IMG/VR virus record: IMGVR_UViG_3300028908_000007
Span: 1-64,000 of that record
Source: a virus
Strand: one strand, 5' to 3'
Length of the DNA: 64,000 bases
Below the pieces are notes generated by a model. It was not told the DNA's origin and searched no databases. It worked only from the letters and a program-made list of their open reading frames with translations. Numbering within the stretch: the stretch's first letter is position 1; every line of letters begins with the position of its first letter. Both the position numbers and the translations under genes were made by a program. This document shows, in pieces, positions 1 to 52,160 of the stretch.

Positions 1-1302
1 CCTCTTCCATACCCACACAATTGGACTACAAATCCAGTTAGGATTACCATTACTGCAAAGAATGAATCATTATTGTATTATGGAGTAACTGAGTTCATTC
101 TGGGAGAGTATCAGAAACCAATAAGTAATACTACAGATACAGTTAGTTCTTTATATACAGTACACACTGTAGTAAATAAAACAATAAAGAAACTAGATAT
201 AGATACCCTATCATTAGAACCTGTACAACTTCTAAACAATACAAGTGTTTTCAATAATGATTTTGAAGAAATATATGTAAAAGATGATAAGCTTATTGCC
301 GTTGGGTTCGTATCAGCCACCTATACTGATACCAATGGAAATACAGTAACAGCAACCAATGATAATATAGCTGTATTTGATATAGGTCTTAAATCATTAG
401 TAAAGACCAGTACGATTACAGGTACCGTAGTACAAGATGAAGTAACCAAAGAACTCTATACTATAGATCATTATACAGGCACTTTTTCTAGTCTGGATAT
501 TGATACCTTAACAGAATCAACGATTGTTGCTCTACCACAACCTACATATAGTGTATTGCTTCGTGATAAAGTAGCATATGTGTTATCAAAAGCACATACT
601 GTTGGCGGTGAGGAGCAACTATCTTTATATAAGATCGATATTCCAACAGGGACGTTTTCTGAGATATCGACAATAAAGAATTATAATCCAACTACATCTT
701 CTATGAATCCTTCTTTTAGTCCTGGAGATATAGCATACCAGAAAACAGATGATAAAGATTTATTAGTTATTAGAATTTTTAATACGACTCCGTTGAGTAG
801 CGATACTACCATACCCCAGGTAAATGGTATCAATCTTACAACAGATGTAGGTACTATAGATTCCGGTGTATTGAATTATGTGGTGGTAGATGTAGATGGT
901 GCGCCTTGGGTGGCTTTCCACTCTATGGCATGGGCAGTTCATCCAACCTTCTTACAAGAGCCAGGTATTGCTTCTATCCCAAGAAAAACATTAATGGTAG
1001 ACGATGAATATGTTTCTTATTTTTCATATAGGAAATCTCCAGACAATTACAGACTTTCCTACACACCAGTAACTTCCACTCTTAGAGGTGTAATTCAAAA
1101 TCCAGTATCAAAAGACCCAGTATATTGGACTAAGATTTCCGATATAGTACAGATATCGCCAGGCAAGTATTTGGTTATTGGTAAAGGACAACACAAACAC
1201 GGTGGGACACTTTCTACAACTAGTGCTGTAATGGCTATCTACACACCATCTGGTGAGATTATTTCGTATAAGATTGCATCAGGAGAGCTTGGTCGGGCGT
1301 GA
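1..1302 (+). CDS. Tail-fibre-like beta-propeller protein, 5' truncated by window edge
   Basis: The reading frame is open from the first base, so this is the last 433 codons of a longer gene. The protein is rich in short beta-strand segments with Thr/Ser/Val and resembles the C-terminal propeller halves of the tail-fibre paralogues at 52457-64000, though without clear GG Kelch signatures. Likely role: virion tail fibre or baseplate decoration (inference). It is followed without a terminator by the omega RNA and IscB gene. The last codons before the TGA at 1300 lie in sequence that may belong to the IscB element, so the native C-terminus may have been altered by the insertion. Confidence 0.55.
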   Translation, partial: PLPYPHNWTTNPVRITITAKNESLLYYGVTEFILGEYQKPISNTTDTVSSLYTVHTVVNKTIKKLDIDTLSLEPVQLLNNTSVFNNDFEEIYVKDDKLIAVGFVSATYTDTNGNTVTATNDNIAVFDIGLKSLVKTSTITGTVVQDEVTKELYTIDHYTGTFSSLDIDTLTESTIVALPQPTYSVLLRDKVAYVLSKAHTVGGEEQLSLYKIDIPTGTFSEISTIKNYNPTTSSMNPSFSPGDIAYQKTDDKDLLVIRIFNTTPLSSDTTIPQVNGINLTTDVGTIDSGVLNYVVVDVDGAPWVAFHSMAWAVHPTFLQEPGIASIPRKTLMVDDEYVSYFSYRKSPDNYRLSYTPVTSTLRGVIQNPVSKDPVYWTKISDIVQISPGKYLVIGKGQHKHGGTLSTTSAVMAIYTPSGEIISYKIASGELGRA

Positions 1303-1490
1303 TCGTAAAGTAGACTAAGTCCTTTTAGTCCGCTCCATGTGATCACTATCAGGAAGTAGTCCTGTACGTACCGACCAGCGCTCCCACGATAGTGGGAAAA
1401 CAGTGAAGTAAGTTTGGTCAGCTAGTGAGACCGCCCAAGACCTATCTGTTCAAGATAGCGTATTGTAATGTGTTTTTATCTAGGAGGTTA
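1280..1490 (+). ncRNA. Candidate omega RNA (IscB guide RNA)
   Basis: This stretch directly upstream of iscB is GC-richer than its surroundings and packed with complementary arms. GTGATC 1299-1304 pairs with GATCAC 1341-1346 and encloses GACTAA 1313-1318 / TTAGTC 1325-1330. Other hairpins are CAGGA 1350-1354 / TCCTG 1360-1364, TCCCAC 1382-1387 / GTGGGA 1392-1397, GGTC 1416-1419 / GACC 1429-1432 and CTATCT 1442-1447 / AGATAG 1453-1458. GGGCG 1295-1299 can close the scaffold with CGCCC 1432-1436. Known IscB loci have the omega RNA just 5' of the ORF, with its 3' end reaching the gene's ribosome site and the guide at the 5' end. The layout fits, including the final hairpin before the AGGAGGT ribosome site. 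Exact ends and guide length are inferred. Confidence 0.75.
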
Positions 1491-1493
1491 TTT

Positions 1494-3164
1494 TTGCCTA
1501 ACTATGTGCCAGTGTTATCTGACGATGATAGAATAATTGGCTATGGCCATCCATCTGTCATCCGAAAGATGTTTAGAGCAAAAGTAGCATTTGTATGCTC
1601 TCGTCACCCATTTATGGTGAAGATGAAGAAAGGCATCAAATGTAAACATGCTCTTAAGAAGTATGTAGAATATGGTATAGATCCTGGTGTACACCACACT
1701 GGAGTATCTGTAATATCTTACGATACGATACAAACTACTGAAGGTCGTATCTCTTTGCGAGATATATTAGCCATGTATGTATTGGAGCATAAGAAACTTA
1801 TTACTAGGAAATTAGAAGAAAGGGCCATGTATCGTCATCATCGACGACGTAGACAACAACGTAAAGGTACTAGATGGTCCAGACTAGGTAAAGAATTTCA
1901 CGTATTACCAGGAATAGATGAAGTTAGAGAAGACGGTACTAGGAAGTACCGTAAAGAGAAAGTAATCCTAGGATACAAAGAACGTAAACTACGTAACCTG
2001 GAATTACTAACAGAGTGGCGTAATTCTGGAAAGATTTCAGAAGAAGAGTATCGATCTAGAGCAAGACAGATCGATAAAGCTTTAAAAGAGCTAGATAGGA
2101 AATATTACAAGCCTAAGAGCTGGTTATCACCAGCTACTAGGAGTAGATTAGAAAACATAGGATATTTCATACATAAGATTTCTTATGGTTTAAATACTAA
2201 TAGACCTATGGTTATCTATTACGAAGATGTAAGATTTACACCTGAATTGGCAGAAGATATATTTAGAGATACCAATAGTATACTTAAACCCATACAAAAA
2301 GACTATATACGCTGGAGAGATAACTATCAGTGCCAGCTATGTGGCTATGATTTTATTAAGAATAATTTCAAAAGACAACCGCAAATAGACCATATCTATC
2401 CTAGGTCTAAAGGTGGTCCTAACGATAGGACTAATTTACAACTTTTATGCTCTAGCTGTAATCAGAAAAAAGATAATTATCTACCACATGAACTCTACTC
2501 TATATTCCCTAAGAAATACCATAAAGCTATAGACAAAATGCAAAATAAAACAAACCATACTAAGCAATATCAAACAAAATCCACTCAAACCAGGAAACTA
2601 TTTGCAAGATATCTGGAACTAGCCATTACAAAATCCAGACTAAGTCCTACTAGGCAAATAGATCTTAAATATCCTACCATTATGTTTAAGGATAAGATAA
2701 TTCATAATTCAGAATTAGTCTATGTCGATAGAGTACCTGGGTATTTTACATACTACTGTAGAAATTATAATAACTTACCAAAAGAACACTGTATAGATGC
2801 TGCCTGTGTATCTAGTAAACCAATACGAGTAAATATAAGATCATATCAGTATACTGAAATTAAAGTAAAGGGACATAGAGATAAATTATACATACGGCCA
2901 GATAAATATGGTTTTCCTAAGAAAACTAGACCTAAACCACGTACTAAGCGTATAAACGGATATCAATCTGGAGATCTAATAAAATATATTACCAAGAATA
3001 ATAATATCTGCAAGGCATATGTCTCTACATCAGCACAAGATGGTCGTATAGCGCTTAATAAAAATGGAAAACAAGTTTTTATGACTACCAAACGAATGCT
3101 ATCCATACTGCATAAAGCAGATGGATATCTCTGTAACCCTGTTAATTTTGGAGACCACTTATGA
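1494..3164 (+). CDS. iscB: IscB RNA-guided HNH/RuvC nuclease
   Basis: A 556-residue protein with all IscB parts in order. The N-terminal PLMP-like segment covers about residues 3-45. RuvC-I is YGIDPGVHHTG (Asp63). An Arg-rich bridge helix lies near 112-130 (HHRRRRQQRKG). RuvC-II is IYYEDVRF (Glu244). The HNH domain has CQLC at 280-283, DH at 299-300 and CSSC at 319-322. RuvC-III is HCIDAAC (His432, Asp435). A C-terminal TAM-interaction-like domain contains GYQSGDLI and DGRIALN. The TTG start at 1494 is chosen because a perfect AGGAGGT sits 6 bases upstream; the frame extends further 5' only through the omega RNA. All catalytic residues are intact. No TnpA transposase is nearby, so mobility, if any, would be by nuclease-driven homing (inference). 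Confidence 0.92.
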   Translation: MPNYVPVLSDDDRIIGYGHPSVIRKMFRAKVAFVCSRHPFMVKMKKGIKCKHALKKYVEYGIDPGVHHTGVSVISYDTIQTTEGRISLRDILAMYVLEHKKLITRKLEERAMYRHHRRRRQQRKGTRWSRLGKEFHVLPGIDEVREDGTRKYRKEKVILGYKERKLRNLELLTEWRNSGKISEEEYRSRARQIDKALKELDRKYYKPKSWLSPATRSRLENIGYFIHKISYGLNTNRPMVIYYEDVRFTPELAEDIFRDTNSILKPIQKDYIRWRDNYQCQLCGYDFIKNNFKRQPQIDHIYPRSKGGPNDRTNLQLLCSSCNQKKDNYLPHELYSIFPKKYHKAIDKMQNKTNHTKQYQTKSTQTRKLFARYLELAITKSRLSPTRQIDLKYPTIMFKDKIIHNSELVYVDRVPGYFTYYCRNYNNLPKEHCIDAACVSSKPIRVNIRSYQYTEIKVKGHRDKLYIRPDKYGFPKKTRPKPRTKRINGYQSGDLIKYITKNNNICKAYVSTSAQDGRIALNKNGKQVFMTTKRMLSILHKADGYLCNPVNFGDHL

Positions 3165-3303
3165 TACGATCACACTGGCTAGTCACTAGTCCACGTTCGT
3201 CCTATAACGATGCTATGCATCACGTCCTCACTACGACCACCTCTGCTCCGCGATGCTACACATCCGGGGTCTGGAGGTCGTAATATATCCGTATATTACT
3301 CCT
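3165..3303 (+). other. Structured GC-richer stretch downstream of iscB; candidate right end of the element
   Basis: This region is non-coding by my reading and much richer in G+C than its neighbours. It contains a GATGC-TAT-GCATC hairpin at 3209-3221, the near-inverted pair GGCTAGT / ACTAGTCC at about 3179-3194, and ACGACC near 3233 that can pair with GGTCGT at 3275-3280. A GGAGGT at 3273-3278 lies too far from the ATG at 3304 to serve it well. The composition matches the omega RNA region, so this is probably the right flank of the inserted element. The exact border cannot be fixed from one sequence. Confidence 0.45.
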
Positions 3304-3714
3304 ATGTCTGTCGTAATATTACCAACACTTAGTGATAAACATTGGGTAGTAGACCCCGTATCAAAAGCTGATATGTTATTTGCACATTTTATGGCAGGTA
3401 GTAATACACAAACCTATATGTATACATCGGAAGTATCTTCACTACCCTACCTATTACAGAAGTATGGTCATAATCCAAACGAATTTGCTACTAATGTAAA
3501 AACCAGATTACAAATCTACTATCAAAGGTACTATGACAATGTAGATATACAGGTCTATGCCAAAGAGGAAGTAGAAGGAACAAACAGATATAGCATACAT
3601 TTGGATATGATTGTTAGTGATGACGGTGGAAAAGAGATACAATTAGGAAGGATTTTGACAATTAATGATGGTAAAATGCAGAAGGTGGTAAAGTTAAATG
3701 CAACTGGATCCTGA
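3304..3714 (+). CDS. Virion/baseplate protein, possibly gp25-like
   Basis: The product has 136 residues from ATG 3304. An in-frame ATG at 3253 would add 17 residues, but those lie in the GC-rich flank of the IscB element, so the later start is preferred; neither has a well-spaced ribosome site. The pattern of a short N-terminal strand, a YLLQKYG segment, a helix FATNVKTRLQIYYQRYYDN and alternating beta strands resembles small baseplate wedge proteins of the T4 gp25 type (weak, by eye). It overlaps the next gene by 17 bases, consistent with one operon. The IscB insertion may have replaced its original translation start. Confidence 0.5.
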   Translation: MSVVILPTLSDKHWVVDPVSKADMLFAHFMAGSNTQTYMYTSEVSSLPYLLQKYGHNPNEFATNVKTRLQIYYQRYYDNVDIQVYAKEEVEGTNRYSIHLDMIVSDDGGKEIQLGRILTINDGKMQKVVKLNATGS

Positions 3715-19491: not shown

Positions 19492-19818
19492 ATGCCTAAT
19501 TCAGATGTTAGGACCTGGATGACCAAGGATCGGTATAAGAAAATATATGGAGAGTACCGTAGAGATGTGAAAGAATGGAGTTGTGATTGGACTGCGCAGG
19601 AGGCGCTTGGTGAAAAATACAGGGATGTGATGTGTGTAGTTAACCCGAACATGGAAGTCTGGCCGTTGGATCAGCGGCGTGGAACCGACCCTAGGTTCTA
19701 CTCACCGAAGAACATGGTATGGTGGTGGAGGACATACTACAATGTCCCCACCTATCGTAGGGAAGCGATCAGTTTGAGGGATTTTTATAAGAAGTCAGTG
19801 AGTTTGGATCCTTATTGA
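19492..19818 (+). CDS. Small Trp/Tyr/Arg-rich hypothetical protein
   Basis: 108 residues with eight Trp and ten Tyr, basic, no membrane segment or signal. It has a strong ribosome site (AAAGGGGG, 8 bases before ATG). Codon choice is more G+C-rich than in neighbours (CCG, CTG, CGG, GCG), as in the capsid gene, suggesting high expression or a different origin. Bounded downstream by a very strong terminator, it forms a single-gene transcription unit. No family recognised. Confidence 0.65.
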   Translation: MPNSDVRTWMTKDRYKKIYGEYRRDVKEWSCDWTAQEALGEKYRDVMCVVNPNMEVWPLDQRRGTDPRFYSPKNMVWWWRTYYNVPTYRREAISLRDFYKKSVSLDPY

Positions 19819-19833
19819 TCCAGACTTGCTAAT

Positions 19834-19879
19834 GGCAGCAGGTAGCGGTGTACCGCTACCTGCTGCCTTATTTTTTTTT
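19834..19879 (+). terminator. Rho-independent terminator
   Basis: GGCAGCAGGTAGCGG at 19834 pairs with the mirror arm ending at 19867 (CCGCTACCTGCTGCC), about 15 bp with a tiny loop, followed by TTATTTTTTTTT. It closes the gene at 19492 and separates it from the convergent helicase gene. Confidence 0.88.
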
Positions 19880-19880
19880 G

Positions 19881-21410
19881 TTAAAAATCGTCGGAATCCG
19901 AAACTCCGGTTTTTAATTCCTGCACCGTCCTGGCGCCCTGTTTTATTTCTTCAGTATCTGGAGGTATGGGCATAGATTCTGGGAATTCGAATACCAAATA
20001 CTTATCTTTTGTAGGAATGATTCCAGTGCCTCTATGTTTTCCTCGACACATATGTAAATATGTCTTCCCGACTCTTTTATCTTCTTCTAGTGCGATATAT
20101 AATTCTAAGTCGATTTCTGTATCTAACTGCCTTGACTTTGCGTAATAACCGCCGCCGTTGATTTCTTCGAGAAGTTTTCTTCCACGTATTCCTTCTCTCC
20201 ACAGTTGTTTTGCCTCTGTTGAGAGTTGATGAGGTGTAATGAAACATATCTTTTTACTACTAAAGAAGTTTCTTACACGTTTGAACATATCCTGCACGTC
20301 AGTGCCAGCAGCTCCACTTCGATCACATCCATAGGTAGGTAGCATTGAAAGATAATCTACCATACACATATGGACTTCATATCCTTCTGCTTCATAGTTT
20401 AATATAACATCCAGAAGATTTCTATAAGTCCATTCGGAAGGATTTACACGCAACATCTTTATATGATATCCATTTATCTCTAATTGTTCTTTGACATAGG
20501 ATGTCATTTCCTTATAATCGTATTGGTATGGATCTACGTTTTCTCGGGTTTCTGCATATTTGAGGTAGGTAAACAACATCGAGAAGTTATGATGAAGTTC
20601 GTCTTCGAGAGATATTCTTAATAAGAGGGGCTTGCGATCTTCATTTATCATGGATGGTTTATTGCACATAGCGATTTGTGCAAATAGACTTAAACCCATT
20701 CCTGTCTTATAGTTATGTTGTAATGCTGCGAGAGTTACAAATTCTCCTCTACGGAATCCACCTTGAAGAGTCTTATTTAGTACTTCCCATCCAGTTTTCA
20801 GTATGGCAGTACCATCGTGTTCTTCTCGCGCTCTTTTGTAGATCTCTTCCAATGTGTTTGGATCGTCAAGATTTACTTTGTCAATAATGGCTGGATCTTC
20901 TTCACCAGAGCTTATCTCTCCTTCGATTTCTCCTATCAGAGTACTAATGGTAGTCTTTAGTGGTTTTCCACCTTCTGCTAACTCTCCATAAGCTCTAGAT
21001 ACGACATTGATCAGTCTTTGTCTTCTTATTTTTTCATTGAGTTCTCTTTTTATCGTTATTATTCTTTTTGTTACGGCTTCTGGAGTCATAACTGAACTAT
21101 CTTGTATAGCTGATCGCAATGTGCTATACAATGCGTCTTTATGACCCATCGTAATAAATTCTATATCGGCTAATATATCCTCTCTCGAATACTCTATATC
21201 TGGAGGATCATTACACATATCATATACTGTTTTAATCAATAATCCAGTACCATCCATATTATGCACGCCTGGTCCTACCAGACGCTGGATCATTTTGTCA
21301 TTGTCGAGTAATTCCTTTACCAGTTCCCTGCTATCAGACTGTCTTGGTTTTATAATGGTCTCTAGATATAACAGGATATAGCATTTTGATAAAATTCTTC
21401 GTTCTTCCAT
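19881..21410 (-). CDS. DnaB-like replicative helicase
   Basis: A 509-residue RecA-fold hexameric helicase of the DnaB/T4 gp41 type. The P-loop is divergent: ALQHNYKTGM (Lys235) in the place of the usual GKT/GKS, preceded by GFRRGEFVTLAA. Walker B is HMCMVDYLSML near residue 344. ITPHQLSTEAK near residue 395 corresponds to DnaB motif H3 and GGGYYAKSRQLD to the H4 region. It would unwind phage DNA at replication forks. It is the only gene on the minus strand between 11.3 and 31.8 kb; its start lies about 55 bases from the divergent gene at 21467. Confidence 0.82.
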   Translation of the reverse strand: MEERRILSKCYILLYLETIIKPRQSDSRELVKELLDNDKMIQRLVGPGVHNMDGTGLLIKTVYDMCNDPPDIEYSREDILADIEFITMGHKDALYSTLRSAIQDSSVMTPEAVTKRIITIKRELNEKIRRQRLINVVSRAYGELAEGGKPLKTTISTLIGEIEGEISSGEEDPAIIDKVNLDDPNTLEEIYKRAREEHDGTAILKTGWEVLNKTLQGGFRRGEFVTLAALQHNYKTGMGLSLFAQIAMCNKPSMINEDRKPLLLRISLEDELHHNFSMLFTYLKYAETRENVDPYQYDYKEMTSYVKEQLEINGYHIKMLRVNPSEWTYRNLLDVILNYEAEGYEVHMCMVDYLSMLPTYGCDRSGAAGTDVQDMFKRVRNFFSSKKICFITPHQLSTEAKQLWREGIRGRKLLEEINGGGYYAKSRQLDTEIDLELYIALEEDKRVGKTYLHMCRGKHRGTGIIPTKDKYLVFEFPESMPIPPDTEEIKQGARTVQELKTGVSDSDDF

Positions 21411-22161: not shown

Positions 22162-24354
22162 ATGCATTTAAAAGACATCGTTGTCGGAAGGCGAGGTTAC
22201 TCCGATAGCACCTCTGCGCTCATTGGCGAGCTTCAGCGAGAAGTTGAAGACAGGCAGGTGCTTCGTGAGGACATCGCACCTATCGTTGTAAATACAGAGT
22301 CTCTTGACGAAGTAGCGAAGACCCGTCTGCAATCTGCTGCCAGCACCATGATCGATTCCTTCGAAGCGGTTACCGCTAGCCTGGGTATTGATGTGCAAGC
22401 AGAAGAACACAACGTACAAGCTGCTGTCGTTGCTTCTCTGCTGGCTACTGCTGGTCGCAAGGCGCTGGCCAACAAAATCAGCACGCCGTCTGCAAACGGT
22501 GAAAATGTAGTAGTTATGGAATCGGCTACTGCTGAAGATTCCTATATCTCTCGGAATGTAAATTTCGAAGCATACGATGAAACTGAAAACAAGCAATCGG
22601 CTGTTTACAGCTTCTTCTACAACTTGATTTCCTCTACACAGGATCCGGTTGCCGAGCTGTTCTTCCCGACCATTGTTATCAGTCCTGACCAGCATGGTCT
22701 TGAGATCAATGTTACGCTGCTGCGGATCTTCGACGAGGTAGAGCACAGCACCAGCGGCGCCGTAGCTGATTTCAAATTCAAGAACGTTCTTCGCGCTTAT
22801 CGCGATTACACTGTTTTAAAGTCCGACGTGACCAAGATCGTACCTGTGTTCCGCAGTGGTGTCAACGACACCAACTTCATGAGCACGGATCTGACGGTCG
22901 GTGTTCCGAATGTAAACACCAATGGTAGCTGGAATACCACTGTTGGTGGTGAAACTGTCGAAACCCTGCCGCTGAAACCTGGCGTACGTCTTGACCTGAT
23001 CGGTCTGTCTCAGACCAACGCACTGCTTGCAAAGGGTGTAATGGATGAGACTGACGCAGTCGACACTGCTATCTACCTGGATAGTATTTATGTCAATCTG
23101 GGTGATGATGGTGCAAGTCCTCCGGGCGATGTTGATGTAATCAAGCTGTCGACCAAAGGTCTGCCTGAGTCCAACTTTGTATATGGTCCGCAGGGCGATT
23201 ATCGTAACATGATTCTGGTCATGGATAACACTGGTCTGGTTATCAGTGATCCGACCTGCATCGACGGTGCTGCTCCGTCCAATGTTACCTGGCCGAACGG
23301 CTATAGCGCTCGTATCCATATCGAAGCAAGTGGTCAAGTACAGACTCAAACTGGTCGTGCTGTTGTTTATATCACTCGTTTCGAGCTGGATTCTGTATAT
23401 GACAGCAACAACCAGATCGTTGCTACTACTGACACCAACTATGCTGCAATCAAGACCATCATCGATGACGCAGAAGTTGTTGGTTATGAGCTGGATGCCA
23501 ACCGCACCAACACGAACCGTCGTCAGCGTGGCCAGATCATCGACGTTAATGTGAAGACTGCGATCTTCCCTGTTCGTCTGCGTAGCCCGATCAGCTCGAT
23601 TCGTCCGATTGGATATGGCGATGATGAAGACGCCAAAGCAATGACGGCTCTGAATACGACTACTCGTATTCGTACCAGTAAGGATGCTATCACCGCACTT
23701 ATTGGTGCTTCTGATGTTCTGTCGGCTTGGGAAGCTCTGCCGAATACGAACTCTGAACTGCCTGAGATTCTGGGTGTTGGTCGTTATCTGGTGAAGCCGT
23801 ACTACATGCAGGAAAGCATCGATATGACCACGATTGTGGACAGTGTCATGTCCTCCAATCGTCAGGAAGACATCCGTGCAGCCCTGATGGGTAAGATCAT
23901 GGACCACGCTTACCGCATGTGGAGTGAGTCCGAGTACAGTGCAGCGTTTACTGCTTTCGCCGGTACTGGTGCTCGTCCGACCGTTATTGTTGCAACAGAT
24001 ACCGTTCTGTATCGCTATCTGAAGCCGCAAGAAGGTTCGGATATCTCTACCGATGCTTTCGACGTACGTATCGCTGCCGATCCGGATAGCCGTCTGTCGG
24101 GTAAGATCTTTATTTCGTTCGGTATCTTCGATGATACCCGCAATAAAGAGCCGAATCCGTTGCAGTTTGGTAACATGGCCTGGGCTCCGGAGGTCACTGC
24201 CGTACTTCCTGTTAGCCGTGGTGGTCAGATCTCGAAAGAGCTGACTGTATGTCCTCGCTATCAGCATGTTGTTAACCTGCCGGTTATGGTACGACTGGAT
24301 GTTAGCAACCTTGAGAGCGTCCTGAATAAGGTCACTATCAACAACTCTGTATAA
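22162..24354 (+). CDS. Major capsid protein (phiKZ gp120-type)
   Basis: A 730-residue protein, close to the length of phiKZ gp120, beginning MHLKDIVVGRRGYSDS. The N-terminal 150 residues are helical and probably a prohead/delta domain removed at maturation, as is usual in this family. The rest alternates beta strands typical of an HK97-fold shell protein, with conserved-looking FFPTIVISPDQHGLEI near residue 172. Codon use differs sharply from neighbours (CTG Leu, CGT Arg, CCG Pro, GTT Val), as expected for the most abundant virion protein. It has its own leader and terminator, so it is expressed as a single-gene unit. Confidence 0.85.
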   Translation: MHLKDIVVGRRGYSDSTSALIGELQREVEDRQVLREDIAPIVVNTESLDEVAKTRLQSAASTMIDSFEAVTASLGIDVQAEEHNVQAAVVASLLATAGRKALANKISTPSANGENVVVMESATAEDSYISRNVNFEAYDETENKQSAVYSFFYNLISSTQDPVAELFFPTIVISPDQHGLEINVTLLRIFDEVEHSTSGAVADFKFKNVLRAYRDYTVLKSDVTKIVPVFRSGVNDTNFMSTDLTVGVPNVNTNGSWNTTVGGETVETLPLKPGVRLDLIGLSQTNALLAKGVMDETDAVDTAIYLDSIYVNLGDDGASPPGDVDVIKLSTKGLPESNFVYGPQGDYRNMILVMDNTGLVISDPTCIDGAAPSNVTWPNGYSARIHIEASGQVQTQTGRAVVYITRFELDSVYDSNNQIVATTDTNYAAIKTIIDDAEVVGYELDANRTNTNRRQRGQIIDVNVKTAIFPVRLRSPISSIRPIGYGDDEDAKAMTALNTTTRIRTSKDAITALIGASDVLSAWEALPNTNSELPEILGVGRYLVKPYYMQESIDMTTIVDSVMSSNRQEDIRAALMGKIMDHAYRMWSESEYSAAFTAFAGTGARPTVIVATDTVLYRYLKPQEGSDISTDAFDVRIAADPDSRLSGKIFISFGIFDDTRNKEPNPLQFGNMAWAPEVTAVLPVSRGGQISKELTVCPRYQHVVNLPVMVRLDVSNLESVLNKVTINNSV

Positions 24355-50841: not shown

Positions 50842-51327
50842 ATGACTAATATTTCCATTGCCGCCATCGGAGTCGATGTAGTAAAAGACGTTAGCAAATA
50901 TCTGGATGAAAATAAGGAAACATATCCAAAGGCTATGGAAGGGTTGGAGGAACTATCCAAAATAACAGTATCTATGTTTCTACATCCTAGATCGATGAAA
51001 AAGATACAGAAACTTATGGAAGAGAATCAGGAATTCAGAGACATGGTTTTTACTACTTATACTCGTTTCCATATGAGACTTAAATATGACTATGAGCGCT
51101 TGGGTGTAACAACTGATAAGTTAATTTCTTCCATAGTCGAATCTGTACAGTACTATGGAGGAAGCTCATACATGGGATATGTAGAGAAACATGAAATGCC
51201 TGAGACCAGCACAAGTCAGATACTCTGGGAACGATATAATTCATCTGAAGCAAATGTATGGATCAAGTACAATCCATACGCTATTGTTTTGTTTCTTATT
51301 CTGGTTTATTATAACGATAATTCGTGA
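50842..51327 (+). CDS. Hypothetical protein with C-terminal hydrophobic segment
   Basis: 161 residues; strong ribosome site. Mainly helical and soluble, with a short hydrophobic C-terminus (YAIVLFLILVYY) that could be a tail anchor in a membrane. No recognised domain. Its stop overlaps a GTG of the following frame. Confidence 0.6.
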   Translation: MTNISIAAIGVDVVKDVSKYLDENKETYPKAMEGLEELSKITVSMFLHPRSMKKIQKLMEENQEFRDMVFTTYTRFHMRLKYDYERLGVTTDKLISSIVESVQYYGGSSYMGYVEKHEMPETSTSQILWERYNSSEANVWIKYNPYAIVLFLILVYYNDNS

Positions 51328-51431
51328 TAAAAAAAATGTCAAATCGATTTAACACATTCACATATTTTTTAAGTGAGAAGGTTAGAGATCTTCTCAAATT
51401 CACCCACAACTCAACTAGAGGTAATATCCTT

Positions 51432-52160
51432 ATGGCAAGTATCAAAGACCAAATGAAAACCATCCAAGAAAACCCGAATTTCGAGCCGAGAATCATTGGC
51501 TCTGTATTGGATAAATGCAAACAGGTTCCAGAGCTCTATGAGGAGCCGCATATCAATCTTAACCCAGACATGTACTCACACGGTCCAAATGCTGAGGATG
51601 TGGAACTGGGCAGGAAGCTGAGTCCGTTCTGGTTCAGGAAGTTCGAGTATCTCGGGAATATTTACCCGAATATGGACTTTTTTATGAACACCATCAACAT
51701 TGCCAGAGGGGATCTTCGTGAAAAGATCCGTCCCTCAGCTTCTCGATCCATTGCCGGTTTTGTTCGGAGGAACAAATATAAAAAGATACACCTTCCGAAC
51801 TACTGGGCGCTCGTCACAGACGCAATGATTGCATCTATAAAGAAAGACGAGAAACTCATGGCGATGCTGTATGAGAGCAAGGCGCCCTTCACCATGTACT
51901 CGATGAAGGACGCAGAGGTACACGGCTGTACATATAGCGTTGTCGAATATAACCCTGTACTGGCGAAGTATGTCGGTATGATGGAGGAGATCAGAACTGT
52001 TCTGAAGAAAGGAGGTGGTGTTTTCGACAACGATCTCGTTCTGGAGCTGTTGGAGAATATCAAGGCAGACAAAGAAGCCGACATGCTCGAAGGCATCATG
52101 TCCGTGCTCTTCATCAAAGAGAAGGATGGTTCGAACAAACAACAGGACGAATCCGCTTAA
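51432..52160 (+). CDS. Hypothetical protein with capsid-like codon usage
   Basis: 242 residues from ATG 51432, chosen for AGAGGT 9 bases upstream; the same frame is open from a GTG at 51324 (36 residues longer) without a ribosome site. From about 51540 the codons become much more G+C-rich (CTC, AAC, CCG, GAG) than in neighbours, as in the capsid gene, suggesting high expression. The protein is charged, helical at the C-terminus (LLENIKADKEADMLEGIMSV), with no recognised domain. A hairpin at 52170-52194 and tRNA genes follow. Confidence 0.6.
   Translation: MASIKDQMKTIQENPNFEPRIIGSVLDKCKQVPELYEEPHINLNPDMYSHGPNAEDVELGRKLSPFWFRKFEYLGNIYPNMDFFMNTINIARGDLREKIRPSASRSIAGFVRRNKYKKIHLPNYWALVTDAMIASIKKDEKLMAMLYESKAPFTMYSMKDAEVHGCTYSVVEYNPVLAKYVGMMEEIRTVLKKGGGVFDNDLVLELLENIKADKEADMLEGIMSVLFIKEKDGSNKQQDESA

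Follow-up and report, generated by a model that had tools for sequence, protein, structure and literature searches.

We analysed a 64,000-nucleotide stretch of viral DNA (hereafter the window), which is the first 64 kb of the 75,388-bp IMG/VR record IMGVR_UViG_3300028908_000007, and identified an intact, free-standing iscB-like gene that appears as an insertion in the genome of a PhiKZ-like phage, with phage genes on either side. The gene encodes a 556-residue protein with IscB architecture and an insert at the REC position; it has phage-typical codon usage, is accompanied by neither a Y1 transposase nor a detectable HEARO guide RNA, and is absent from the relatives searched. We infer both its role and a guide RNA with which the protein would still act. 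The explanation that we favour, at about even confidence, is a highly diverged, free-standing IscB-family nuclease of homing or interference whose guide RNA has been reduced or escapes recognition. In a bolder form, which we put forward tentatively as possible but doubtful, the locus would represent an independent step from IscB towards Cas9 in a phage, whereby a REC-like helical module was gained, the HEARO was cut to a short guide RNA of a new type, and the product came to serve, with neither CRISPR nor a transposase, as a phage-adapted RNA-guided nuclease for homing or interference.

Protein architecture and the REC-position insert

The iscB-like coding sequence (positions 1494-3164, on the plus strand, as are the other features mapped at the locus) opens with a TTG start codon and follows a Shine-Dalgarno motif, AGGAGG, read at 1482-1487. 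On the evidence of its open reading frame (ORF), profile matches, alignment and structural model, its product belongs to the IscB-like RRXRR/HNH family by protein. The Pfam models RRXRR (E 3.4e-16, 60.1 bits against a gathering threshold of 25) and HNH (E 1.2e-13, 51.4 bits against 21.4) both matched, the HNH domain spanning residues 280-328 (2331-2477). The NCBIfam model guided_IscB gave an E-value of 1.5e-36 but 126.1 bits, under its cut-off of 175, and the NCBIfam model of type II-D Cas9, CRISPR_Cas9d, gave 42.6 bits against a cut-off of 375. Since the guided_IscB score lies below its cut-off and no HEARO was detected, we do not file the locus as a canonical IscB-HEARO system, although it may still work like one.

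In an alignment of 45 sequences (A6), comprising the 556-residue protein and 44 others to which it is 24-32% identical, the catalytic columns are filled and their codons were checked. These comprise the RuvC-I aspartate D63 (1680-1682), the RuvC-II glutamate E244 (2223-2225), H300, N314 and N323 of HNH, and H432 and D435 of the RuvC-III HxxD motif (2787-2798). The zinc-ribbon cysteines C280, C283, C319 and C322 are kept, as are the bridge-helix arginines R110, R114, R117, R118 and R123 between RuvC-I and RuvC-II. All of these positions are invariant over the 45 sequences, save N323, which is nearly so. The retention of active-site and bridge-helix residues at such low identity is what would be expected if RNA-guided cleavage were still under selection. 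The C-terminus, with a TAM-interaction-like domain at approximately 2946-3146, can be aligned both with other IscBs and with IscB and IsrB structures. An original prediction, made from the DNA letters, had claimed a protein at 1494-3164 with every RuvC and HNH catalytic residue, the bridge helix and this type of C-terminus, and in these respects it holds. Its claim of a PLMP-like N-terminus was too strong as worded: the domain aligns and is modelled, but the literal PLMP motif is degenerate and reads IGYGHP.

The linker motif NPEISGxEYQQG, found ahead of HNH, has also been lost. Together with the lack of a guide RNA recognisable to Rfam or to our own model R1 (described below), this loss could point to an RNA-independent IscB, that is, a protein-only HNH/RuvC homing endonuclease that reads its site directly, and homing endonucleases are common in phages (PMC12908238). 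A cutter of this type would not need all of the bridge-helix arginines, the C-terminal domain and both active sites, each of which is kept, and we regard this account as quite improbable.

The protein forms a very long branch in the tree (length 10), and its placement there is unsure. A long branch, a missing HEARO and an odd linker might also describe the decaying, functionless remnant of an IscB insertion that has already lost its guide RNA. We consider decay highly improbable, since even in an AT-rich genome the frame stays open for 556 codons behind a Shine-Dalgarno motif and every catalytic residue is present. The G+C content of the gene is 0.343, and its third-position G+C and codon distance lie inside the range of other phage genes; codon usage and composition of this phage-like kind suggest that the gene is not a fresh arrival. 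Matches to TAL effectors (E down to 4e-18) were dismissed as an artefact of adding up numerous feeble repeat matches across the C-terminal domain: no single stretch passed alone, and those printed had i-Evalues of at least 13.

The AlphaFold2 model of the protein has a predicted local distance difference test score (pLDDT) of 71 and a predicted template modelling score of 0.65. Among Foldseek's own top matches, which are the only ones that VIA-align considers, the best was IsrB (8dmb; Z 18.9 over 292 residues, root-mean-square deviation 5.2); OgeuIscB (7xht) aligned with Z 17.3 over 285 residues and a deviation of 5.5. IsrB and IscB entries fill ranks 1-9, with Z from 18.9 to 15.6 (17.3-18.9 for the top six). 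Against this, the whole-model superposition by Foldseek is loose, with a template modelling score by query length of at most 0.39 among the matches listed. In a viral structure library, no IscB-like match over the whole length stood out, and the named matches (E <= 0.001) were HNH proteins.

An unusual feature of the protein is an insert of about 72 extra residues after the bridge helix, at the REC position (approximately 1884-2117, as placed by alignment, model and spacing). From R118 in the bridge helix to W210 at the entry to RuvC-II there are 92 residues, whereas the same spacing is 20 residues in 107 ORFs and at most 48 in the others (L171), among 126 measured ORFs that include the present one and were counted only where residues occupied both measured columns. 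The full length is also large, 556 residues against 376-482 in 93 other full-length frames (by the starts chosen). The insert is modelled as a helical hairpin of two long helices, residues 154-178 and 183-204, with a block-mean pLDDT of 83-93 for residues 161-200; this model is poorly backed by the alignment, an insert of such length being absent from all other aligned sequences. Some IscBs and early Cas9s are already known to have REC-like inserts there (PMC13180657). The position of the insert is therefore not new; what we found no report of is a phage protein that combines it with a HEARO lost to recognition.

The DNA encoding the insert (1900-2160) also contains several near-perfect RNA hairpins, with a z-score of -5.8 against dinucleotide shuffles. 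We make no claim of RNA structure within the ORF: when synonymous codons are shuffled, 1974-2123, the best window, reaches only -3.55 and ranks tenth from the bottom among the 670 coding windows of this phage, while the mean z-score of the iscB gene (-1.1) is the lowest of 25 genes tested in this way.

The upstream region and the search for a guide RNA

A HEARO lies ahead of iscB in 119 of 126 comparison loci, which were found by protein patterns and are not all independent. Rfam accounts for 12 of these and model R1 for 107. R1 was built from the 18 HEAROs that Rfam finds before iscB in 6 of 7 phage or plasmid loci and 12 of 13 viral-contig loci, and 12 of the 119 counted HEAROs also trained it. 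The end of the HEARO lies 17-127 nt from the start of the iscB match (median 32) in 118 of the 119, and in the remaining locus (L139) a damaged iscB begins 18 nt past it. In all seven loci without a HEARO the 5' end is truncated or damaged: in six (L096, L104, L133, L149, L163 and L170) the iscB match is partial or lies at most 181 nt from the fetched 5' end, and in L126 the protein match begins only at profile position 121. R1 also detects the HEARO at L011 (48.8 bits) and at the divergent L025 (46.9 bits), neither of which reaches the Rfam gathering threshold. The viral iscB scan covered the best 80 of 414, with counts restricted to the long-frame loci L012-L022, L024 and L025; a further scan behind the comparison loci covered the best 80 of 266. 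L103 was left out of the HEARO count as a duplicate of the plasmid of L008, and L270/L271, L262/L273, L263/L264, L259/L284 and L025/L279/L280 are apparent near-duplicates.

Two of the comparison contigs merit mention in their own right. L025 (3158-4942; also L279-L281) encodes a second divergent IscB-like viral-contig protein, with a different C-terminus and a HEARO below the Rfam threshold, on a contig rich in transfer RNA genes. IMG/VR 2914811602_000002 (29,878 bp; L014 and L022) holds several iscB copies, two of them in L014 alone, and, though labelled viral, may be bacterial or prophage sequence.

Directly upstream of the iscB-like gene, the original prediction had described a structured RNA, and it had called the whole a complete IscB locus. 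Completeness is not supported, because Rfam and R1 together find a HEARO wherever the 5' end of a comparison locus is intact and find none here. Absence by Rfam alone would mean little, since only 65% of published 5' untranslated regions of HEARO nucleases have an Rfam match (PMC9755519). As for structure, the fold of the upstream RNA is a little more stable than expected by chance (z -2.4, with 3 of 200 shuffles equal); the 120-nt windows from 1261, 1321 and 1381 rank 97th, 453rd and 134th of 1065 across the 64 kb, and the fold is thus unremarkable for this genome.

A HEARO begins with a P1 stem, GUC...GAC, which is followed by CAG. We identified a five-base-pair motif of this kind upstream of the gene, where GTCGG (1292-1296) pairs with CCGAC (1371-1375) ahead of CAG (1376-1378), followed by a hairpin, CCCAC-GATA-GTGGG (1383-1396; stem 1383-1387/1392-1396), which lies 97 nt ahead of the start codon. 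This is the single site with the P1+CAG signature on both strands of the window, and the signature is present in 14 of the 18 true HEAROs and in 205 of 20,000 shuffles of the region, or about 1%. As a trace of a HEARO it may be real and deserves modest weight. On the basis of the fold and this motif, with Rfam and R1 against it, we mark 1292-1493 as a candidate for a diverged or reduced guide-RNA scaffold. If the P1+CAG reading is right, the 97 nt would hold a shortened second half of the scaffold, and the guide, placed by the HEARO layout, would be the 16 nt at 1276-1291, within the 3' end of the upstream gene (1-1302, its 5' end off the contig), whose last codons overlap the candidate RNA; such a layout is known for IscB.

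Several results weigh against this reading. Rfam gives no HEARO at the locus with E-values up to 10, and R1, with filters off, gives none in 1000-3600, its best score of 1.9 bits falling elsewhere; nor does R1 find one in the whole 75-kb record. Confined to 1270-1500, R1 scores only -2.7 bits over the P1/CAG region, and there it pairs the GTC at 1328, not that at 1292. The P1+CAG motif was picked after the sequence had been seen, and the pattern is lacking in 4 of the 18 true HEAROs. The HEARO blocks CUACGUUA, GAUAAC and GGCGAGG do not occur in 1270-1500, and of the block AUUAAACAG only AAACAG is found, at 1398.

The same observations bear on a more conservative account, an ordinary phage IscB whose upstream HEARO has diverged past recognition and whose mechanism would not be new. 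The P1+CAG signature stands where it would be expected, AAACAG occurs nearby, the upstream gap of 191 nt is close to the length of a HEARO, and the incomplete reach of Rfam is consistent with a missed match. Nonetheless, R1 detects the sub-threshold HEAROs of L025 and L011 and yet nothing here, CUACGUUA is not present, and the 97 nt from the CCCAC hairpin to the start codon compare with about 136 positions past the equivalent hairpin in the Rfam HEARO model. We judge this account unlikely. It might instead be supposed that a guide RNA is supplied in trans, from a HEARO encoded by the host or by phage sequence beyond the record. The record probably represents only part of the genome, and stand-alone omega RNAs able to function with IscB have been reported (PMC9581776). 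The close placement of HEAROs before iscB in the comparison loci, and their absence from the 75-kb record, make such supply in trans decidedly improbable.

Other candidates in the region were set aside. A match to RAGATH-12 at 1354-1410 (19.2 bits against a gathering threshold of 75) was treated as chance, although RAGATH-18-derived RNAs have been reported with IS607 TnpBs (PMC11061315), and for this reason the resemblance may merit a look with relatives in hand. A promoter and terminator scan gave counts similar to those in shuffles. The Rfam search gave no Intron_gpI match that would place the gene in a group I intron, an absence that is not proof, and there are no direct repeats resembling a CRISPR array in the window, the record ending 1.5 kb before the gene.

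Phage context, insertion site and proposed mechanism

No Y1 transposase TnpA was found in the 75-kb record, in a search made for Y1 and not for serine transposases, in agreement with the original prediction of an IscB-family gene without a transposase. The prediction had treated this absence, in a phage, as the surprise, which we do not follow. A Y1 transposase is lacking in 14 of 15 viral iscB records, the present one included; in the single record with TnpA it lies at 107 kb of 185 kb, while iscB lies near 19-20 kb. More than 16% of published HEARO-nuclease fragments are viral or prophage-like (PMC9755519), and two further phages, one of Microcoleus and one of 484 kb, also carry full IscBs with a HEARO (L004, L005). 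A phage IscB without transposase is therefore ordinary and not in itself new.

The 75-kb record comes from a PhiKZ-like phage, whose genome it probably covers only in part. Downstream of iscB lie a conserved phage gene (phrog_3294; 3304-3714, its start set by homology), an SbcD-like gene, genes for RNA polymerase beta-type subunits, a divergent DnaB gene and the gene for the major head protein, which is found at 22 kb. Many genes without a known function separate iscB from the head gene, and downstream genes of this sort fall in families common to PhiKZ-like phages. Burkholderia phage FLC9 has homologues of gene 3304 and its neighbours in the same order, as does Erwinia phage AH06 as far as compared (homologues of gene 3304, the SbcD-like gene and gene 5383). 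The iscB-like gene had been placed among virion genes, a loose description of a setting that includes the SbcD-like and RNA polymerase genes and the head protein gene at 22 kb. It had also been assigned to a jumbo phage, a description that fits the 225-322 kb of the 30 records listed as having a gene 6243 homologue; for the 75,388-bp record itself, jumbo size would follow from that of its relatives, no search for phage-nucleus genes having been made.

We fetched 80 related-phage loci by their SbcD-like neighbour. None of the 80 has a match to iscB, nor a homologue of the upstream gene (E <= 0.01, flanks of up to 6 kb), while a homologue of gene 3304 is present in 54. In 49 of these the strand is the same, and 47 of the 49 offer 2 kb or more of sequence ahead of the homologue. 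Counting against the proposed insertion, the relatives are too distant for an empty site to be aligned at the nucleotide level, and the upstream gene has no homologue there or in the two collections searched; the neighbouring proteins are at most 44% identical to those of relatives (39% for the SbcD-like protein). Scans of viral contigs with the IscB, downstream-gene and upstream-gene proteins yielded no close relatives, and a pattern search based on how the upstream gene ends matched only L252, which proved unrelated on inspection.

The right end of the insertion may fall within the intergenic stretch 3165-3303, which has a G+C content of 50%, compared to 37% for the genome, and is foldable, with none of 200 shuffles equal. 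Just ahead of gene 3304, TATATTAC, which has 15 occurrences in the window against 7.5 expected, is present on both strands and may resemble a PhiKZ early promoter. Elsewhere, third-position G+C is 0.51 in 22162-24354 (the major head protein gene) and 0.56 in 51324-52160, compared to 0.21-0.40 in the other listed genes. When the window was scanned for predicted RNA structure, the strongest (z -10.9) was at 19801-19920, in or near the gap adjoining the minus-strand DnaB-like gene.

Homing or a weapon against rival phages, the roles first proposed for the gene, are compatible with its absence from relatives and with a precedent in PhiKZ-like phages, and remain our conjecture in default of an empty site. 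The HNH homing endonuclease gp210 of phage PhiPA3, a PhiKZ-like phage, confers an advantage over a co-infecting phage (PMC11620839), and the case shows that a nuclease of this type can target a homologous gene in the co-infecting relative and lower its progeny (PMC11620839; review PMC12908238). We hypothesize that, in the favoured explanation, a guide RNA would most likely be transcribed and processed from 1276-1493, the guide itself being encoded where the upstream gene ends, and that the RNA scaffold might have been reduced or rewritten while the protein gained its REC-like helical insert. The RNA-protein complex would then cut co-infecting related phages at the uninterrupted site, whereupon recombination could copy the gene in (homing) or the rival phage would be damaged (interference). 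An exchange of RNA scaffold for REC follows published reasoning on Cas9 (PMC9581776, PMC9755519), which structural work proposes to have arisen from IscB as RNA elements gave way to a growing REC; a pseudoknot degenerated, a loss probably compensated by REC expansion (PMC9581776).

Relation to known systems

A natural IscB with a REC-position insert, no recognisable HEARO and a score far below the type II-D Cas9 model would offer a second case for testing the trade of RNA for REC. It would, moreover, be a candidate for an RNA-guided weapon of PhiKZ-like phages, among which a homing endonuclease, gp210, is known to take part in competition (PMC11620839). Nature may here have remodelled an RNA-guided DNA cutter for use on rival viruses. 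In the literature searched, which held few subscription journals and preprints, there was no report of an IscB in jumbo phages or of a protein of this kind; such silence is weak evidence of novelty.

With the IscB-HEARO systems (OgeuIscB and the phage or viral copies L004, L005, L012-L022, L024 and L025), the locus shares the split RuvC, bridge helix, HNH, zinc-ribbon cysteines and C-terminal domain, the usual lack of TnpA, and the position of the gene directly behind a non-coding stretch. It differs in the extra residues at the REC position, the degenerate PLMP and linker motifs, the lack of a detectable HEARO, and an identity of at most 32% (alignments A1 and A6). OrufIscB, TbaIscB and CzcbIscB, in company with early type II-D Cas9 (PMC13180657), have REC-like inserts; unlike these, the present protein is phage-borne, with no CRISPR-array-like repeats in the window and no recognised guide RNA. 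PhiPA3 gp210 is likewise an HNH nuclease in a PhiKZ-like phage, for which homing-type targeting and interference have been shown. However, gp210 is encoded within an RNA polymerase gene, inside a putative group I intron, and is reported solely as an HNH endonuclease (PMC11620839), whereas the iscB-like gene, at which no intron signature was found, is free-standing and encodes a RuvC domain as well. The core fold is shared with IsrB (8dmb, Z 18.9), which lacks HNH (PMC9581776), whereas the 556-residue protein of this phage possesses it.

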